In this document: piece after piece, positions 10,384 to 34,598 of the stretch
How positions within the stretch are numbered: the stretch's first letter is position 1
Layout of the letters: every line of letters begins with the position of its first letter
Source of the DNA: a virus
Virus record (IMG/VR): IMGVR_UViG_3300035701_000150
Span: 1 to 34,598 of that record
DNA length: 34,598 nt
Direction: 5' to 3' (one strand)
The notes under the pieces: model-generated
The model's input: the letters and a program-made list of their open reading frames with translations, nothing else
Databases searched by the model: none
Told to the model about the DNA's origin: nothing
Made by a program: the position numbers and the translations under genes

Positions 10384-12036
10384 TTAAATTTCCGAGTATC
10401 TGAACGTCACCGACAAATTATTGACGGTGCCTGATTTATCTCCAGTTCTCATCACCAGCCAGGTGTTGGCCGGAATGCCTGCAGTAGTAAAAGAAGTAAA
10501 ATCCTGTCCAATCCCGGTATTGGTGATGGTCTGCTTCGTTGAAAAGAACTTGGTGGTATCAGTCAATGTCGTGGAATAATAAGGATCAATCCCAATTGAC
10601 GGCGTAGTTCCTAATACTACCGCATGTACCTGTAACAGTGTACCTGCATTGTGCATATATAACATAGGCGTAGATTCACTCGTATCTGGAGAATCGACGG
10701 TATATGCTACGTACGCACTTGCACCCGCGGGACCCTGGGTTCCTGTTGGACCTTGTATACCCGTTGCTCCTTGAGTTCCTGTACCCTGAGTCCCAGTACT
10801 ACCTTGAGGACCAGTATTTCCCTGAACCCCTGCTCCTTGCGCACCAGTACTACCCTGAGCCCCGGCCGATCCTACTGGCCCCTGATTACCTTGTGGCCCA
10901 GTATTACCTTGTGTTCCAGCACCTGTACTACCTTGAGCCCCAGTAGAGCCCTGAGGACCTGTTTTTCCTTGTGTACCTTGAGTCCCCTGTGCTCCAGTAC
11001 TTCCTTGAGAACCCGCGCTGCCTGTAGGTCCTTGTGTCCCGGCACCAGTACTTCCCTGAGCCCCTGTTGAACCTTGATTACCTTGTGGGCCCTGAGCCCC
11101 GGTCGGTCCCTGAGACCCAGTAGAACCTGCAACTCCCCCTGAGCCCTGTGGACCAGTGGATCCCTGACTGCCTGGAGAACCAGTACTACCCTGTGAGCCA
11201 GTACTACCCTGTGAGCCAGTACTACCTTGAAATCCTTGTGCCCCCGAGCCCTGAGCCCCAGTGTTTCCTTGACTGCCGGTAGTGCCCTGTGAACCTTGAA
11301 ATCCTTGTGGTCCAGTATTTCCCTGAGCTCCTGTAGTTCCATAATTACCAGGTCCCTGGAAACCTTGTGGCCCTGTGTTTCCCTGAGCCCCTGTATTTCC
11401 CTGAGTACCCTGTGCCCCAGTACTTCCCTGGTTGCCTTGAGCCCCAGTACTGCCCTGTGGCCCGGTATTTCCCTGTGTACCTGTATTTCCCTGCGTACCA
11501 GTAGGTCCAATATTGCCTTGATTACCTTGAGCCCCTGTTGAACCCTGGTTTCCAATAGGCCCCTGCGTGCCCTGGCTGCCCGTAGGTCCTTGTAATCCTG
11601 CAGGCCCAACATCACCTTGGTCACCCTGAGGCCCGGTGGCTCCTGGAAGATTACCTGGCCCTTGTGAACCAGTGCTGCCCTGAGTACCTTGAGGCCCCTG
11701 AGGCCCGGTCAATCCTTGGATTCCAGTATTACCTTGAGAGCCCTGCCCGCCTCCGGAACCTGTTGTTCCCTGATTACCTTGAGACCCCTGTGGTCCAGTG
11801 CTACCTTGTGCCCCAGCCCCGGTTGGGCCTTGGAACCCGGTAGGCCCGGTACCACCCTGAGGCCCGGTTGGCCCTGTATTGCCTATGCCTGGGCCTTGTG
11901 GCCCCTGAGGCCCTTGATTGCCGAGAATGGCCTGTGATTTAATCTTCCAGGTGGCGGTCGCTGACCCGTAGACCCAGGTTGTTCCTGTCGTGTTTGTATA
12001 TTCTTGGCCGTCTATTGGGTTCGTCGGGAATGCCAT
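10384..12036 (-). CDS. Collagen-like fibre protein (550 aa)
   Basis: Residues 1-40 form a small N-terminal domain ([19 protein letters not shown]) found at the base of many phage fibres. Residues about 41-438 are Gly-X-Y repeats rich in Thr, Gln, Asn, Ser and Pro (GPQG, GSTG, GNTG units), able to form a collagen-like triple helix. Residues 441-550 form a beta-rich C-terminal head that could trimerise and bind a receptor. ATG 12036 uses an AAGGAG lying inside the end of the 46-aa gene upstream. The repeat resembles that of the 1093-aa protein, allowing exchange between the two genes. Role as a virion fibre is inferred. Confidence 0.85.
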
Positions 12037-12191: not shown

Positions 12192-15100
12192 TTAATCAGA
12201 TATCTTATTGACGATCAGCACGTTCCTACGAGTGGTCAAAGTAGTGGTATTTACACTATGTGAAAACCAAGCATTTACAACATTCCCACTTTTAATAGGA
12301 GCCTGTGTCGCGAATGTAAAGCCTACTGTTTGATTAGCGGCAGTATAAACGTAGCTATTTGAAAAATTATTCAGATCGGCGTTAGTTCCATCAATCAAAA
12401 TTTTCAGATATAAAGCGCCAGCGTTACCAAACTGATAAAATGAGGCCATCGAAATGACATAGGTACCATCCATCCCACAGGTAAGGTCACCATTCAAATT
12501 TGATGTCCAATTTCGGCAGTCACCTAAGTAATTTCCATATGTCCATTTGTAAAATGTGTTTGCAGTAGTAAGAACTAATGCAGTTGAATCCTGCGACGAA
12601 GTTGCAGGCTGATAAATCTTTGCAAATGCAGGAGTCCAGCTACTACCAGTACCAGTAGGACCTTGTGGCCCAGTATTACCCTGAGTTCCCTGTCCTTGTG
12701 GTCCAGTATTGCCCTGAGGCCCGGTATTACCCTGAGGCCCATTACTCGATCCAATGCGGTTTATCGTGAGTGAGGCTGGACCACTCGAAAGATTGGTTTG
12801 ATCCTCGTCGAACGAGGCATACATCTCCACATAATCACCGGCCACAAGTGTTCCGTCATATTTACAGATGGCTGCTCCGACAATCATTTCTTCTGCATAC
12901 CGGGCCTCTGCAACTGACGTTCCATTAACGTATATATCTACGTAATATTTTTTCCCGGCAGTATAGGTTTTCAGCCCGGCAAAACACCAATAACCGAATA
13001 CCGAATAAGTACCATCGTATCCGGCATTGACTGTGATTCGGTGATTAGTGGCGGCATCAACAGTAGTGTTGAGTTGTGCTCCCGCAGTCGTATCAACCCA
13101 TTTTGTATATACTCCAGCTGAATAAGTATGAGGATTATATAGGCTGCATTGCATGGCACCATATGCTTCCATTGCCCCCTGAGGCCCGGTTCCTCCTTGA
13201 TTACCTTGTGGGCCCTGAGCCCCTGTGGCTCCAGCTAAGTTTCCTGGACCCTGATAACCCTGCGGTCCGGTACTACCTTGAGCCCCAGTACTGCCCTGAG
13301 AACCTGTATTTCCCTGTGTTCCTTGGAAACCCTGTGCCCCAGTGTTCCCCTGAAATCCTTGAACCCCAGTACTTCCTTGAGACCCGGTGTTTCCCTGAGT
13401 ACCCTGTGCTCCAGTGTTCCCCTGAAATCCTTGAACCCCAGTACTTCCTTGAGACCCGGTGTTTCCCTGAGTACCCTGTGCTCCAGTACTTCCCTGAAAT
13501 CCTTGAACCCCAGTACTTCCTTGAGACCCGGTGTTTCCCTGAGTACCCTGTGCTCCAGTACTTCCCTGGTTGCCTTGAGCTCCGGTACTACCTTGTGACC
13601 CAGTGTCTCCCTGATTGCCTTGAGCTCCAGTATTGCCCTGAGACCCGGTACTGCCCTGCGTGCCTTGTGGCCCAGTATCCCCCTGGACTCCAGTAGGACC
13701 AGTATTACCTTGAACACCTTGAGTACCTTGTGCCCCGGTATTACCCTGAGACCCGGTATTACCCTGAGACCCAATGTTTCCCTGATTTCCTTGTGTTCCC
13801 TGTGCTCCGGTAGAACCTTGTGTGCCTTGTGCACCAGTACTGCCTTGAGAACCAACATCACCCTGAGGCCCAACTGATCCTTGTGCCCCAGTAGGACCAA
13901 TACTGCCCTGTGGCCCGGTATTGCCCTGCATGCTGCCTGCGGATATCTGCACCCACTTATTAATGTTTGCTATACCCGCGTAAAGTATCTCATCAACTTC
14001 ATTCCAAAGCAGTACAGGCGGTGCCGAAATGGCCGGCCATGATGACATATCCCAGAAGTTTGCTACCCCGGTGCCCCCCTGAAATCCGGTTGGCCCCTGC
14101 CAGCCCTGCGGTCCAGTATTTCCCTGAGACCCGGTATTACCTTGTACCCCCTGCGTACCTTGATTACCTTGCGTGCCTTGTGTACCCTGAAATCCCTGTG
14201 CCCCGGTATCACCTTGTGGACCAGTGTTTCCTTGTGGCCCGGAAACTCCCTGATTACCTTGGATTCCCTGTGGACCAGTGTTTCCTTGTGGCCCGGTATT
14301 TCCTTGTGGCCCAGTAGGACCTTCCAAATTACCAGGACCCTGAGACCCGGTGGCTCCAATTGGACCGGTTGGACCTTGTGAGCCTATGCCTCCTGCTCCC
14401 TGCGAACCTTGTACCCCCTGCGTACCGGTCGGACCAGGCCTGCCCTGGTAACCACGAGGCCCCTGAGGCCCTGTGGCGCCTTGTGCGCCAGCCGCCATCG
14501 GTTCCATGGGATTGTTCAAATCCTGCCGGTAGAAGACCTCCAGGCCTACCTGGACGCCTGCCATAGGCCTTGTAGTCTCGGCCATGAACGGCTGATTGTA
14601 AACAGGATAGCATTCGGTACAGGTTCTATTGCCTTCAGAATCCGGTAATACATAGTTATTCATGAACCGCTTCTCCACATCGGCCACCACCTGCTCAATG
14701 TCGCTGTTGACCGTATCAGGATTTTTAACGAAATTATCAATAGTGTATATCAGGCGCTTCTTAACCCAGTTGTCCTGGCCCTGCTCATCATACTCCTCAG
14801 CGCGGGATATCACATTGGCGAAAGGAAAGTTATTCATGGTCTCTACCGAGCGTATGTCCCGGTCGGTGTCCGTATACATGGTTTTGTTATAGCCATTGGC
14901 TTTCTTAATCTGGCTGAGCTGATATTCAATGGCCTCCGCAAGCTGGTCCTTGATTGATATTGAACAGGTCTCCTCCAAATTGAACTGTGGAGGTTCTCCT
15001 TTGGCTGTAGAATAAGGATCAAATAGGTTCTGCATGTATTCTATCGAAATCTCCACGGTCATTCCCCCATGGCTCTTGGACTGTTGCAGGCCCCAGGGAG

Positions 15101-15473
15101 TGTTCTTTTTAAATAGCGTTATGTTGCATGTTGGCTTACCATAGACATCCGGCAACATGAAGTTATTTAGTAATAACTTCTCAATATCCTTGACCGCCCT
15201 ACTTCTCTGGTGGTCTATGTCGTTGTTATTCCTGAAGAAATAATCAATGTTCATTATGGCTGATTTGAACAGGTAGCCTGAACTATGTGTAGGTTTCTGA
15301 TAGGTCTCACGGCCCCAGATTAGGTTCACGGCCGGAAAATTTCGCATCATCTCAAAACTGCGCGGCTCGATGTTGAGTTCGCCAATGTTCTGGTCATAAC
15401 CGTTCGGAATCGTTATGAGCCGAAGATTTTGAAACAAGGCCTTTCGTATCTTGGTCTTTACTGAATCAGCCAA
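12192..15473 (-). CDS. Duplicated tail-terminator-like domains fused to collagen-like fibre and C1q-like heads (1093 aa)
   Basis: Residues 1-160 and 170-322 look like tandem copies of one domain: NFPAVNL/NFPFANV, a central helix ending NNFMLPD/NNYVLPD, a shared Cys (PTCN/RTCT), and a closing strand ([24 protein letters not shown]) typical of tail terminator proteins. Collagen Gly-X-Y follows at 328-469, a 45-residue insert at 470-514, collagen at 515-766, a C1q-like beta domain at 767-911, a short collagen link at 912-944, and a second C1q-like domain at 945-1093. The start is TTG 15473, five bases after GAGGAGG. Position between gp10-like and tail-tube genes fits a terminator. A neck whisker is the simplest reading. 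Domain names rest on sequence pattern only. Confidence 0.75.
13320..13535 (-). repeat. Three tandem 72-bp units inside the collagen region
   Basis: Within collagen block 2 of the 1093-aa protein, a 24-residue unit beginning [15 protein letters not shown] is present three times in a row (residues about 647-718), with near-identical DNA at a 72-bp period: the word CCTGAAATCCTTGAACCCC recurs near 13348, 13420 and 13492. Whole-unit gain or loss keeps the reading frame and would change fibre length. Confidence 0.85.
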
Positions 15474-15765: not shown

Positions 15766-17625
15766 TTATTTTATTGCAAATACCGTTACGGTACTGTCAG
15801 TACCGGTCGACCAGAACCGTCTGATTGAATATGGATAATGAGTCCCTGCCACAACGGTCAAGGAGACATCCCCGCTCGAGGCGTCTACCGCAGTTACCTT
15901 CAGGACTCCTGACGCACCGACAGTGAATGCCTGGCAATAATCCCAGACCCCCGCCTGGTCCTGGAACAGCTGTGCCGTGGTATCAGACTTCGTCACCGCG
16001 TTAATCATTGTTCCCTGCCGGAACGGGTGCTCGGTTCTGTAGAGCCCAGTACCGGTCACGGTCAGCGGGAACGCAGTCGTATCATTGTCATTGCTGTTGA
16101 ATGTTATAATAGCCGACTGTGACCCAATATTCCACGGATAGAAGACCACGTCCGCGGTGCTCGAGTCGCCGACGGATATGTAAGCATTCGACACATTGTC
16201 GTTTGCAAGATAGAACTGCGCATTATTAGACGTGACTGTGGTCATTATAAGTGCCGTATTACCAATATTTGTTACGGTCACAGTTTTGCTTACCGTGGAT
16301 AAAGGAGTCGTAGCACCCACCCCGCATGGGCTCGGGCTTACATCTATATCTGCCGATACTTCAGTTCCATCAAACACTAACGAATAGGTCGCGGTAACCG
16401 GATCATTGGACGGTATCAATAAAGTATCCACAGAGGTACCATCCCCGTCGTGAGGCGTATACCTGACTACCACTGTGCTCGAATCACCGGTATTGAACAG
16501 TGTCTTACCTGTCACATTATTCCCGGTCATGGCAAAAGGCGCCGCCAGCCCTGACAACGTGGTTATGATAAGAGGCTGGTTCCCAGTATTGGACACGGTA
16601 ACGGTCTTGTCCGTAGTGGTATCAGTACTCTTACCGCCAAAACTCCAGGACCCTGGTGAGACGGAGACTATTGGCTGTGCGCATGTACCATCCAGGCGCA
16701 TGACATATGGTGTCGTCGCATCATTGGAAGGAATTGTCAGGTTGCTCGTGTCGCCGGTGCTCAATACGGACGGAATATAAACGACCGTCGTATCAAGCCA
16801 TGCCCCCGCGGCTATGGTAGCATCAGAGAGGCTCTGCCCAGATATCGCAAAAGGGGTTAAAGCCGTCACGGTGCCTATGGTCAGATTGATGTTACCTATG
16901 TTCGCGGCCCGTACTACTTTAGGAGTGGAACTGGATTTGATATGTGTGCCATAGCTCCAAGAGCCTGGTATTACGTTCAGAATGGCCTCTTCACATGTGC
17001 CGTCTACTATGAAAGTTACAGCAGGTGTGACCGGATCATCCGAGGATATCGTAAGAGTATCATTTATTCCAGAGTTCAATGCGGTCGGCCTGTAACTGAC
17101 CGTGGCATCAGAATAGGTTGCTCCCGGAACTATCGTTGCCGCCAGCGAACCAACCATCCAGAACGGGCTTATGAAAGTGTCGGCGGTAATATGCAAGTCA
17201 ATGTTTCCGGTATTGGTCACGGATATGGCCTGGTCGGTCGTGGTGCCGCGCAAGTGATTCCCGAAGCTTTTGAATACAGGTGAAACACCAATTATGGCCT
17301 GTTCGCATGAACCATCCATATTGAAAGCATATGTAGGAGTGATCGGATCGTTCGAAGGTATGTTAAGAACCGAGGCATCGCCCAGGCTCAGGATTGACGG
17401 TATATATGCTACGGTCATATCGGCATATGCCAAAGGAGCTATTGTAGCATCAGATATTGAAACTCCTGCAATACCAAATGGGCTGGGCGCGGTAATGGTA
17501 CCAAGTATCAGAGTAGCATCTGCAGCACCATTACTGACCCGGACTACCTGGGTCGTAGTGGAACCTTTAATGTGTACCCCGAAACTATGTGATACTGGGG
17601 CGACAATAATTGTTGAATCTGGCAT
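15766..17625 (-). CDS. ASH/Ig-like five-repeat protein with C-terminal spike-base domain (619 aa)
   Basis: Five repeats of about 105 residues (roughly 7-107, 112-212, 213-315, 316-420, 424-528) share a start V-x-P-x-x-x-S-[FY]-G, a centre T-V-x-N-x-G-N and an end PSNDPxTPxYxFxxDGTC. This is the choice-of-anchor-D or ASH/DUF1573-like Ig fold. The first three repeats end in DG[ST]C, with one Cys each. Residues about 533-619 match the adjacent 88-aa spike-base-like protein. The protein is thus a rod of Ig domains with a probable capsid- or fibre-binding foot. It starts at ATG 17625 behind AAAGGGAG. Location after the gp10-like gene suggests a head or neck decoration. No signal peptide is seen. 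Confidence 0.72.
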   Translation of the reverse strand: MPDSTIIVAPVSHSFGVHIKGSTTTQVVRVSNGAADATLILGTITAPSPFGIAGVSISDATIAPLAYADMTVAYIPSILSLGDASVLNIPSNDPITPTYAFNMDGSCEQAIIGVSPVFKSFGNHLRGTTTDQAISVTNTGNIDLHITADTFISPFWMVGSLAATIVPGATYSDATVSYRPTALNSGINDTLTISSDDPVTPAVTFIVDGTCEEAILNVIPGSWSYGTHIKSSSTPKVVRAANIGNINLTIGTVTALTPFAISGQSLSDATIAAGAWLDTTVVYIPSVLSTGDTSNLTIPSNDATTPYVMRLDGTCAQPIVSVSPGSWSFGGKSTDTTTDKTVTVSNTGNQPLIITTLSGLAAPFAMTGNNVTGKTLFNTGDSSTVVVRYTPHDGDGTSVDTLLIPSNDPVTATYSLVFDGTEVSADIDVSPSPCGVGATTPLSTVSKTVTVTNIGNTALIMTTVTSNNAQFYLANDNVSNAYISVGDSSTADVVFYPWNIGSQSAIITFNSNDNDTTAFPLTVTGTGLYRTEHPFRQGTMINAVTKSDTTAQLFQDQAGVWDYCQAFTVGASGVLKVTAVDASSGDVSLTVVAGTHYPYSIRRFWSTGTDSTVTVFAIK

Positions 17626-26981: not shown

Positions 26982-27047
26982 TGTAAGTCCTTTTGTGTAT
27001 CAGCGGTTAACAGCTACATAAGGATGTTCCGGCCATTATCGGTATAG

Positions 27048-27085
27048 GTGTCTGCCATTTGCCTGTAGAAAGGCCGGGCAGACAC
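27048..27085. repeat. 9-bp perfect inverted repeat with nested stem, upstream of the late operon
   Basis: GTGTCTGCC at 27048-27056 pairs with GGCAGACAC at 27077-27085, and a nested GCCT/AGGC stem lies at 27061-27074. In the late (leftward) direction it would form a leader hairpin about 70 bp before the small terminase start. A TTTTTT run lies 18 bases beyond it on the plus strand, too far for a normal terminator. A regulatory or packaging-related structure is possible. Confidence 0.5.
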
Positions 27086-27133
27086 AGCATGATCAGTTAC
27101 TATTTTTTGTAATATTAACGGATTATTAAAAAT

Positions 27134-27175
27134 ATGAGCCAACTTACGTCTACAGTATATGATTAGTGGGCTCAT
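27134..27175. promoter_or_regulatory. Operator-like inverted repeat ATGAGCCAAC / GTGGGCTCAT
   Basis: The right arm read on the minus strand is ATGAGCCCAC, matching the left arm ATGAGCCAAC in 9 of 10 bases, with 22 bases between them. The left arm covers AGCCAA, which on the minus strand is TTGGCT, a possible -35 element for the leftward operon with an AT-rich stretch 17-19 bases on. A dimeric repressor or activator could bind here. No regulator is identified in the window. Confidence 0.4.
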
Positions 27176-27224
27176 CGTGGCCTATTGTGATGTATAGTAT
27201 GTGTATGTTATTACTGCTAAGCTT

Positions 27225-27236
27225 TTTTGGTATATA
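27225..27236 (+). promoter_or_regulatory. Extended -10 promoter for the rightward operon
   Basis: TTTTGGTATATA includes an extended -10 (TG-N-TATATA). The ten bases TTTTGGTATA recur exactly at 30808-30817 before another rightward gene. No good -35 is seen, which extended -10 promoters can tolerate. Transcription would start near 27243, leaving a leader of about 25-50 bases. Confidence 0.5.
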
Positions 27237-27289
27237 GACTTATGCATTTTTCTCTATGAAAATGGATGGAAAAGTTATATAATAATTAT

Positions 27290-27758: not shown

Positions 27759-28754
27759 ATGAAAACAGCGTTAGTTACCGGAGGTCATGGGTTTATAGGA
27801 CATCATATGGCAAAGAGGCTCAAACAGGAAGGCTACTGGGTGAGAACTGTTGATATTCAAGAGTTCCATTATGGAAAACTTCCTGTGGATGATTATACAA
27901 TAGGAGATCTGAGAGACAAGGCAATCTGTGATGAAGCTTTTACGCCCCCGGACGGGAAGCCCTGGGACGAGGTGTATTGCTTCGCTGCTTGGATGGGAGG
28001 CGCATTTGTAATCTTTTCTGGAAATAATGACGCCCAGATAGCCCATGATTCCGCTTTGCTTGATATACTTTCCGCGGAAATGTGTCATAAATATAAAGCT
28101 AAAAAAATATTTTTTTCCTCTTCAGCTTGTGTGTATAATCAGGATAATCAATTGGATCCAGATCACCCGGTCACTTATGAGGCTTCCGCCTATCCTGCCA
28201 ACCCTGATTCAATTTATGGGAAGACTAAATTATGGTCGGAGTGCTTATATCAGTCCTATCGCAGGAATATGGGTTTGGACATTAGAATTGCTCGGTTCCA
28301 TAACATCTTCGGGACAGAGGGTGCATGGGGGAATGGGAAAGAAAAAGCACCAGCGGCAATGTCTCGTAAGGTTGCTATGGTAAAGGATGGAGGCACTATA
28401 GAGATATGGGGTCCGGGAGTTCAGACAAGATCTTTTTTGTACATCGACGAATGCCTTGAGGGCATCCGCAGGCTCATGGATTCCGAAACCTTCTTCGGAC
28501 CGGTGAACATAGGGTCTGAGGAGAAGATATCTATAAATGATCTTGCCAGAATGGCCATGGACATTGCCGGCAAGAAGCTTGAGATAAAGAACGTTCCAGG
28601 ACCGCTCGGGGTCATGGGGCGCAACTCCGACAACCGGCTCATCAGGGAGAAACTGGGCTGGGCCCCGTCCAGGCCCCTCCGGGAGGGGATGGAGAAAACC
28701 TACCGCTGGATTGAGGAGCAGGTGCGCCTCGGGAAAACGGATCCTAAATGTTAA
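27759..28754 (+). CDS. GDP-mannose 3,5-epimerase-like NAD-dependent sugar epimerase (331 aa)
   Basis: A short-chain dehydrogenase/reductase (extended type) with GGHGFIG (residues 8-14) binding NAD, YxxxK at Tyr153/Lys157, and features close to GDP-mannose 3,5-epimerase: SSSACVY with Cys124, RFHNIFG, GKEKAPAAM with Lys196, WGPGVQTRSFLYIDECLEG and GRNSDNRLIREKLGWAP. The Cys and Lys match the known acid/base pair. It would convert GDP-mannose to GDP-L-galactose or a related sugar. The last third (from about 28440) is clearly more GC-rich than the first, so the gene may be mosaic or recently acquired. An AGAGGAA site precedes ATG 27759. GDP-mannose itself must come from the host. Confidence 0.88.
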   Translation: MKTALVTGGHGFIGHHMAKRLKQEGYWVRTVDIQEFHYGKLPVDDYTIGDLRDKAICDEAFTPPDGKPWDEVYCFAAWMGGAFVIFSGNNDAQIAHDSALLDILSAEMCHKYKAKKIFFSSSACVYNQDNQLDPDHPVTYEASAYPANPDSIYGKTKLWSECLYQSYRRNMGLDIRIARFHNIFGTEGAWGNGKEKAPAAMSRKVAMVKDGGTIEIWGPGVQTRSFLYIDECLEGIRRLMDSETFFGPVNIGSEEKISINDLARMAMDIAGKKLEIKNVPGPLGVMGRNSDNRLIREKLGWAPSRPLREGMEKTYRWIEEQVRLGKTDPKC

Positions 28755-28770: not shown

Positions 28771-29073
28771 ATGACTATTGATGAGTTATTAGCCCGGCCG
28801 GACCTGGCCTACGTCCTATCCCGGTTGGAGCCGCGGCAGCGGCAGGCCGTGGAAACCATCATGAGATCGCCGGAGAGGCCGGCCCTGGTCCTCCAGGCCC
28901 GGTACCCAGGCCTAACCTACCAAGTGCTTGAGAAACGGTTCCAGGAGCTCCTGGTCAGGTACTGTAACCAGAGGCTCCTTACAATGAAACCACCCTTGAA
29001 ACTGTCAGATTTTAAATCTTACTGGAAATATGGCTGGAATCTGCCCCAGCCACGGGCCGCGCTCGGTTCCTGA
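28771..29073 (+). CDS. Small basic protein, possible DNA-binding (100 aa)
   Basis: The helical N-terminus (DELLARPDLAYVLSRLEPRQ, then QAVETIMRSPERPALVL) is followed by a second helical part (YQVLEKRFQELLVRYCNQRL) and an aromatic basic C-terminus (KSYWKYGWN). The arrangement resembles a compact helix-turn-helix or sigma-like fold, but no family is recognised. It lies 16 bp after the epimerase and shares its high GC content. The repeat region begins directly after it, so it is a candidate to bind there (inference). Confidence 0.7.
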   Translation: MTIDELLARPDLAYVLSRLEPRQRQAVETIMRSPERPALVLQARYPGLTYQVLEKRFQELLVRYCNQRLLTMKPPLKLSDFKSYWKYGWNLPQPRAALGS

Positions 29074-29464
29074 GCCATAGGCAACTAATTAATATCATTC
29101 AGAAAGATTCCTTGAAGGCAGAATTCCATAAAATCTTAACATCTGATTAAATTAATATATCATTCAGAAAGATTCCTTGACTTGAATTCAAGGATTCGAG
29201 TACAAGGAATATGCAAGGAATATTCCAGGAATTGATTCCTAGATTCGAACTCTTGATTGATTCCTTGACTTGAATTCAAGGATTCGGAATCAAGAATTCA
29301 GTCAAATCCTTGTATATTCCTGGAATATTCCTTGTACTTATAATTCAAGAGTTCAATTCAAGGTACTATATTCATGGAGATTTACCAACAAAAATTCTAC
29401 ACTTTACCTATTGCTTTTTCCGGAAAAAGATGTTATATTAATCATCAACATTAAGGAGACACAT
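29074..29464. other. 391-bp non-coding gap holding the repeat cluster
   Basis: This AT-rich gap has no convincing gene. Frames crossing it are made of repeat sequence and lack ribosome sites. It contains the repeat cluster at 29087-29363 and, at its end, the leader and TAAGGAG site of the 57-aa zinc-ribbon gene. Confidence 0.75.
29087..29363. repeat. Dense direct/inverted repeat cluster, candidate origin or protein-binding centre
   Basis: A word CAAGGAAT or its complement recurs throughout: TTCCTTG at 29108, 29173, 29261 and 29328; CAAGGAA at 29203 and 29214; variants at 29189, 29277, 29306 and 29359. A 28-bp unit is repeated exactly (29171-29198 and 29259-29286), each with the 12-bp palindrome CTTGAATTCAAG. 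A 29-31-bp unit around ATCATTCAGAAAGATTCC occurs at 29087 and 29150. Inverted pairs include GTACAAGGAATAT (29200-29212) with 29325-29337, and GAACTCTTGA (29247-29256) with 29345-29354. This looks like an iteron origin, a partition site or a large cruciform. No DnaA box recognised. Confidence 0.8.
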
Positions 29465-29638
29465 ATGAAGGTTACAGTTGAGAAGTACGAATGTTTGAAG
29501 TGTTATCATGTCTGGATACCCCGTATAGAGGGCAGGAAGCCTCTACAGTGCCCCCGGTGCCACAACAGTGCCTGGGATAGACCTAAGAAGGTTAAGCATT
29601 TTCCCCCGGAAACGGGGGTTGAACCGCGGAGCTTGTAG
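29465..29638 (+). CDS. Small zinc-ribbon protein (57 aa)
   Basis: The start is ATG 29465 (MKVTVEKYEC) because TAAGGAG lies 8 bases upstream. The open frame extends further back only through repeat DNA. CLKC near residues 10-13 and CPRC near 29-32 flank a HVWIPRIEGRKP hairpin, a classic two-knuckle ribbon, followed by SAWDRPKK as in many small phage and bacterial ribbons. It may bind DNA or partner with a larger protein. A 6-bp GAAA-tetraloop hairpin (29602-29617) lies in its coding end. Confidence 0.75.
   Translation: MKVTVEKYECLKCYHVWIPRIEGRKPLQCPRCHNSAWDRPKKVKHFPPETGVEPRSL
29602..29617 (+). other. GNRA-type hairpin in the end of the zinc-ribbon gene
   Basis: CCCCCG GAAA CGGGGG forms a perfect 6-bp stem with a GAAA tetraloop, very stable in RNA. 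It codes for FPPETGV. No U-run follows. It may stabilise the message or be chance. Confidence 0.45.
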
Positions 29639-29639
29639 A

Positions 29640-29698
29640 GCCTTCTGTGACTGCCACAGAGGCATAAAAAACAAAGGCAGACATTGATAATGCCTGCC
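29640..29698 (+). other. Two successive hairpins between the zinc-ribbon and 212-aa genes
   Basis: Hairpin 1 pairs TCTGTG (29644-29649) with CACAGA (29655-29660), extended by GCC/GGC around a bulge, followed by ATAAAAAAC. Hairpin 2 pairs GGCAGACATT (29676-29685) with AATGCCTGCC (29689-29698), one mismatch, with a three-base loop. Neither has a proper U-run. They might partly terminate or process the transcript. The rest of the gap to 29775 shows nothing else. Confidence 0.4.
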
Positions 29699-29775
29699 TG
29701 AGCTTTGGATTATATTGAGGCTCGTAATCCATCAATATACTCCATTGCACAACAATTTGCAATAGGAGTCTTCAT

Positions 29776-33834: not shown

Positions 33835-34598
33835 TTACGGGGTTAAAAATGAATCCTGTATTGGTGCAATATTCTGCGTAGTATCCTGTAGGCCTACCCA
33901 GCCAATCTCATTCTGGTGCTGGATTGTGTCCTGTATATAATAGCCCAGCTTGCTCGGCACTCCTGTAATCATCGCTGTCAAATTAATCAGACCATCTTCA
34001 TTACCGAGCTTCCTGGTGACCTTTTCCGTGATGCATTGTATTGATGTTTTGTCAGTCTGGAACGGCAGGTCCAACCAGAAATGCTTTCCAGTATGGTATA
34101 AATTACCAATCTCATATGGCACATCAAATGACAGCCATCTCGGTGGCCTTATCTCATAGTACCCGGTTCCATCCGCGGTGGACATATCGTAAACGCCCAT
34201 ATAACTCTGCCACGAATATAAATATTGCACGGCCATCACCGGATCGGTAATCCAGTATTTGTCCGTCATTTCCGACGGCGGTTGCTCAATCTGCTTGTAA
34301 AAATTATAGAGACAATGCGACCGGCTCCACAGGGCCGAGGCGTCCGCCAGCGCAGGAACGCCTGTCACGTACGAGGCGTCCCACTGGTCTGCCTGTACGC
34401 TGAGGATATTGATGAGCCCGTCGAATTTCTGCGACGCCTGGTTGTACGAGTACTGCACATATGGCTGGCAGAATACATCCTCCGGCTTCTGCTCGGTCAG
34501 CTGTGATATTGGTCCCACAATGTCCGTCAGGTCAATGTGCGGAAACCACGCAGTTACGTCCGAACCGTCGCCTGTTGGTTTTATCGGCCACACAGGCG
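33835..34598 (-). CDS. C-terminal part of a tail-tip protein, start beyond window edge
   Basis: The frame is open to the right edge. A GTG at 34593 exists but has no ribosome site, and the codons before it are open, so this is a truncated gene. About 254 residues are seen, with motifs HIDLTDIVGPISQLTEQKPE, PYVQYSYNQASQKFDG, MTDKYWITDPVMAVQYLYSW and SFDVPYEIGNLYHTGKHFWL, and a normal C-terminus. It looks like the closing domain of the large tail-tip protein whose N-terminal 919 residues end at position 1. Joining position 34598 to 1 directly is off by one base in frame. Confidence 0.65.
   Translation of the reverse strand, partial: PVWPIKPTGDGSDVTAWFPHIDLTDIVGPISQLTEQKPEDVFCQPYVQYSYNQASQKFDGLINILSVQADQWDASYVTGVPALADASALWSRSHCLYNFYKQIEQPPSEMTDKYWITDPVMAVQYLYSWQSYMGVYDMSTADGTGYYEIRPPRWLSFDVPYEIGNLYHTGKHFWLDLPFQTDKTSIQCITEKVTRKLGNEDGLINLTAMITGVPSKLGYYIQDTIQHQNEIGWVGLQDTTQNIAPIQDSFLTP

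Follow-up and report, generated by a model that had tools for sequence, protein, structure and literature searches.

What is the function of a dense array of short repeats in a non-coding gap of a tailed-phage genome in which no replication gene is recognised? The array lies in IMG/VR record IMGVR_UViG_3300035701_000150, an unclassified tailed-phage contig that was analysed over its whole length (positions 1–34,598; this 34,598-nucleotide stretch is the window throughout). It occupies ~280 bp of non-coding DNA at 29086–29363, within a gap of 391 bp (29074–29464) that is the largest in the plus-strand operon. A preliminary description of the window had placed an iteron-like repeat cluster at 29087–29363 and proposed a replication origin or a partition centre; the location stands, with the start of the repeat field moved to ~29086 owing to a direct repeat of ~31 bp. 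It had also called this the only large non-coding gap of the early region, which is correct in that no gap in the operon is larger, but a divergent gap of ~240–280 bp is also present at 26982–27265. The array is a real, ordered and unexplained non-coding element and is most likely a platform with multiple protein-binding sites; the leading reading of its predicted function is a phage replication origin, to which we assign a little less than an even chance.

The array is built around the word ATTCCTTGA (hereafter the box), which is present in both orientations in 11 copies with at most one mismatch between 29107 and 29335: at 29107, 29172, 29235, 29260, 29316 and 29327 on the plus strand, and at 29188, 29202, 29213, 29224 and 29276 on the minus strand. 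Weaker copies are at 29290 (minus) and 29305 (plus). The reverse complement of the box, TCAAGGAAT, is the CAAGGAAT-like word of which about ten copies in both orientations had been noticed, and that count is borne out: dinucleotide shuffles of 29080–29400 contain a mean of 0.37 boxes and a maximum of 3 (2000 shuffles), and the best family of any 9-mer has at most 7 members in 300 shuffles, versus the 11 observed. The exact forms CAAGGAAT/ATTCCTTG are found six times in the array (29107+, 29172+, 29203-, 29214-, 29260+, 29327+), with a single further occurrence in the rest of the 34.6 kb. Contig-wide there are 29 hits to the box at the same threshold versus 9.9 ± 3.3 expected, a number that none of 100 shuffles reaches, and the 11 copies in the array are the highest count among all 321-bp tiles. 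In a weight-matrix scan of the whole contig, the 11 highest-scoring sites all fall inside the array (the matrix was trained on the array, and the result speaks to specificity only), and the word therefore does not mark many promoters; no sites are found at the divergent early/late gap by either the word or the weight-matrix scan.

The boxes are ordered at several levels. At the left end, two plus-strand copies of the ~31-bp direct repeat, differing by a 2-bp indel and 65 bp apart (29086–29180), share an exact 24-bp core, ATATCATTCAGAAAGATTCCTTGA, at 29092–29115 and 29157–29180; each copy contains a -10-like TATCAT and ends in one box. Two identical 28-bp units follow (29171–29198 and, 88 bp downstream, 29259–29286), in each of which two inverted boxes 16 bp apart surround a perfect 12-bp palindrome, CTTGAATTCAAG (29181–29192 in the first); the exact units and their palindrome are as the preliminary description had them. 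Between and beyond these units are two sets of three tandem 11-bp iterons: the left arm (29203–29235) reads CAAGGAATATG, CAAGGAATATT and CCAGGAATTGA on the plus strand with its ATTCCTTG boxes on the minus strand, and the right arm (29302–29338) has the opposite orientation, with its boxes on the plus strand, and is 86% complementary to 29199–29235. Spacing is helical, at 11 bp, inside each set. The long inverted pairs reported earlier are likewise present, one of 37 nt at 86% and one of 19 nt at 100%; the order in which these elements are arranged, with opposed iteron sets, inverted box pairs and a large palindrome, is an addition to the earlier account.

This palindrome is imperfect and spans 189 bp (29175–29363), with the second 28-bp unit at its centre. 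It matches its own reverse complement at 72% identity (BLAST), and as RNA could form a hairpin of 73 pairs around a 7-nt loop (29269–29275) with a predicted stability of -79.5 kcal/mol. When the same boxes are randomly re-placed and re-oriented in the same background the mean is -55.5 ± 6.0 kcal/mol, and none of 1,500 such arrangements is as stable; many boxes alone thus do not yield the palindrome, and the symmetry is a property of the locus. There is no second copy of it in the contig.

Two features of iteron-type and lambda-type origins coincide here: the box is an initiator-type word repeated above chance, and an A+T-rich, easily unwound element overlaps the left part of the array. By nearest-neighbour stability, only one other 60-bp duplex in the contig is weaker than 29128–29187, a stretch that is a candidate unwinding element. 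The array is also situated in a plus-strand, non-structural module with no recognised replication gene, on a contig whose gene order would suit a nearly closed circle. We envisage that a dimeric DNA-binding protein would dock on the array at some 12 half-sites, provided by the box pairs and by the two 11-bp iteron sets of opposite orientation, and would compact the 280 bp into a folded complex; this would strain the A+T-rich DNA until it melts, and the open strands would permit loading of a host helicase and polymerase. The same platform may control adjacent promoters, and the two roles are compatible. If the array is an origin, replication would start at a compact, symmetrical set of sites for which no initiator is recognised, and this would suggest a minimal scheme dependent on the host and small initiators of a new family.

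Several observations weigh against an origin. No cognate initiator (Rep or O-like) is identified in Pfam, PHROGs or NCBIfam, although the early proteins are mostly orphans and the contig is possibly incomplete. DnaA boxes, which are common but not universal in plasmid iteron origins, are lacking at up to one mismatch in 28900–29500, the nearest exact one (28130) being inside an epimerase gene. Helical phasing over all of the boxes is not significant (p = 0.33), and no relatives that would show conservation of the array were found in viral, phage, plasmid and genome collections. GC skew, suggested earlier as a check at 29.1–29.4 kb, offers no independent support, as its turn is not at the array but at 26–27 kb, where the genes change strand. 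The lack of a replication gene is itself provisional: joined directly, the contig ends put the minus-strand reading frame out of register, and the contig may be incomplete. The preliminary proposal of an origin or partition centre accordingly fares unevenly: the iteron-like array, the easily melted A+T-rich DNA, the confinement of the word to one place and a neighbouring protein with a possible helix-turn-helix all agree with it, but the absence of DnaA boxes and of any recognised initiator or partition motor, and the GC skew, do not.

The neighbouring protein, of 100 aa, is encoded upstream (28771–29073, plus strand), its gene ending 13 bp before the array. Its single-sequence structural model has a mean pLDDT of 71, and a Foldseek search with it returns nothing significant (best E 0.65). 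When the hits are re-aligned by structure, sigma factors or their region 4 fill every one of the top ten rows, with Z of at most 4.9, a score that short helical models reach easily. The model thus weakly suggests a helix-turn-helix fold resembling sigma region 4, which is a lead rather than proof, and makes the 100-aa protein a candidate binder of the array. A wholly new type of origin, in which a small sigma-region-4-like protein lacking a helicase-loader part binds a free-standing, non-coding 189-bp palindromic iteron array, and in which a phage with no other replication gene hands its DNA to the host replisome, is conceivable but very doubtful.

Comparison with characterised systems gives partial parallels. 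In ori-lambda, dimers of O bind inverted-repeat iterons that lie next to an A+T-rich element (PMC5043065), and in the origin of the PLE satellite a non-coding region carries semi-palindromic iterons bound by RepA (PMC7145576). The present array resembles ori-lambda in its compactness (~280 bp), in having inverted-repeat boxes suited to a dimer, and in the A+T-rich weak duplex alongside; it differs in that the phage has no recognised O-like initiator, and in that the boxes are additionally organised into opposed 11-bp sets and a single 189-bp palindrome. It is also outside any gene, whereas the lambda iterons lie inside the O gene. Plasmid and PLE (RepA_N) iteron origins share with it the non-coding setting (a gap in PLE too), the semi-palindromic repeats and some helical spacing, but here the orientations are mixed, phasing over the whole array is not significant and there is no recognised Rep. 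The parC site of ParMRC has 11-bp iteron sets beside a promoter and a small DNA-binding protein, and the array similarly has such sets near a promoter-like site and a small protein that may bind DNA; it differs from parC in that the genome has no recognised motor gene, and in that its iteron sets are mutually inverted and mixed with other box pairs.

An alternative that we consider possible but unlikely is that the array is solely an operator, to which a phage regulator, perhaps the 100-aa protein, binds cooperatively and so switches the flanking promoters (TATCAT at 29093 and 29158, and TTGCTT/TTATAT further downstream), with no role in replication. Each TATCAT copy is closely followed by a box in a fixed position. 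The second copy, unlike the first, has a good -35 (TTAACA, 29136–29141, spacer 16), giving a promoter-like site at 29136–29163 with a 10/12 match; the adjoining protein may be helix-turn-helix, and the gene downstream of the array has a good ribosome-binding site. Promoter-like sites are no commoner in the scan than in shuffles (3 versus 2.0 ± 1.5), however, the divergent early/late gap has no boxes, and at least 11 sites over 230 bp with long-range symmetry are many for one operator. An operator array would be a regulatory site of an ordinary kind but of unusual size; whichever reading holds, the array provides a concrete DNA target for working out the roles of the orphan early proteins of an uncultivated phage. 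The same promoter-like site would start a transcript about at the foot of the hairpin, and a transcript from near 29170 could fold over ~190 nt as a leader or small RNA that controls the downstream zinc-ribbon gene or binds a protein. The fold is very stable (z ~ -5), but we regard this explanation as improbable: the gapless arms (37 nt, 86%) differ by five transversions and no G-U, and only 4 of the 73 pairs overall are G-U, so that DNA symmetry explains the fold equally well, and opposed protein sites the symmetry. There is also no plus-strand terminator after the hairpin, no Rfam family at gathering score (the best, at E 0.36, is far below it), and no homologue was found with which covariation could be assessed.

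The partition centre raised in the preliminary description would make the array the centromere of a plasmid-like prophage, with opposed 11-bp iteron sets as in ParMRC parC or tubC. The direct iterons near promoter-like sites and the small possible DNA-binding protein next door are in keeping with this, but no ParM, ParA or TubZ-like motor is recognised in any predicted protein, bearing in mind the orphan early proteins and the unproven completeness of the contig, and we give it a slim chance. The slimmest is that of a foldback (MITE-like) element that arrived by transposition, or of a telomere-resolution site serving a protelomerase. Either would account for a near-continuous 189-bp hairpin with nested inverted repeats, but no protelomerase is recognised and the outer palindrome is imperfect at its centre; for a foldback element, there is no clear target-site duplication beside the arms and no further copy in the contig, and the core has no exact match in viral or genome collections, no plasmid match and no significant match in 14 bacterial genomes.

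Relatives of the array were sought by exact-pattern scans of IMG/VR and GTDB genomes and by blastn against phages and plasmids, and none were found; 32 matches to CAAGGAATNNNCAAGGAAT were set aside, having no box cluster and at most 4 sites in 250 bp. The 57-, 100- and 212-aa proteins and the portal have no relatives in IMG/VR, nor do the 100-, 212- and 181-aa proteins in phage records, and across the viral and phage collections searched no relatives are detectable for early genes other than a widespread epimerase. Terminase relatives are distant (24–36% identity), as are all of the structural relatives found, and these distant terminase relatives have no comparable array; the only non-coding cluster found among them, in L025, is a low-complexity stretch of T/A runs. 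The array is absent from the 14 bacterial genomes checked, which also lack the terminase but for one distant match.

The contig encodes a terminase, a portal with a Mu F-like domain, a major head protein, collagen-like fibres and a tape measure protein. The structural genes are on the minus strand in two blocks, one reaching from ~27.0 kb to the left end of the contig and the other from its right end to 32.4 kb, and the single plus-strand module (27.27–32.42 kb) that carries the array lies between these blocks; its genes are orphans, with the exceptions of a sugar-nucleotide epimerase and weak zinc-ribbon matches. We infer that this layout would suit a nearly closed circle. At the ends, on the minus strand, a 919-aa frame (1–2768) runs off the left and a 253-aa frame (33835–34598) off the right, and if the genome is circular or permuted, both frames could belong to a single tail protein. 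The ends do not overlap, however, and as their direct join is out of frame, the contig may be incomplete. None of the predicted proteins is recognised as a replication initiator, helicase, polymerase, integrase, protelomerase or partition motor, which agrees with the earlier remark that nothing in the gene content explains the array, correct for recognised families; the absence of a replication gene is provisional because the contig may be incomplete.

Downstream of the array, a promoter-like TTGCTT-(~17)-TTATAT (29412–29438, plus strand) was read directly from the sequence and is not listed by the promoter scan. Its spacer contains a perfect palindrome, TTTTTCCGGAAAAA, a possible separate operator, and it is followed by AAGGAG and the start of the 57-aa zinc-ribbon gene (29465–29638, plus strand), whose product has two CxxC pairs and weak family scores only. 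Beyond this gene is a second strongly structured non-coding stretch (29640–29775, z = -5.1), with a stem and T-run on the minus strand and interleaved inverted repeats GGATTA/TAATCC and TATATTGA/TCAATATA. A hairpin there, CTCC-ATTGCA...TGCAAT-A-GGAG, would hide the ribosome-binding site of the 212-aa gene, which starts with TTG, and the stretch is possibly a regulated leader; the structural model of the 212-aa protein (pLDDT 32) is useless.

The epimerase gene (27759–28754) has full-length identity of up to 64–65% to proteins of uncultivated bacteria from many phyla and was probably acquired from a host; the scatter of these relatives over many bacterial phyla gave no indication of which host. 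Among the virion genes, the collagen-like (Gly-X-Y) tail-fibre proteins are encoded at 10384–12036 and 12192–15473, and their repeats also contain CCTTGA words (e.g. 13354–13524, with a 72-bp period) that are unrelated to the array. Several HYDIN/ASH-type Ig-like domains (E 8.5e-26), which are unusual in a structural gene of a phage, are present in the virion-module protein encoded at 15766–17625.
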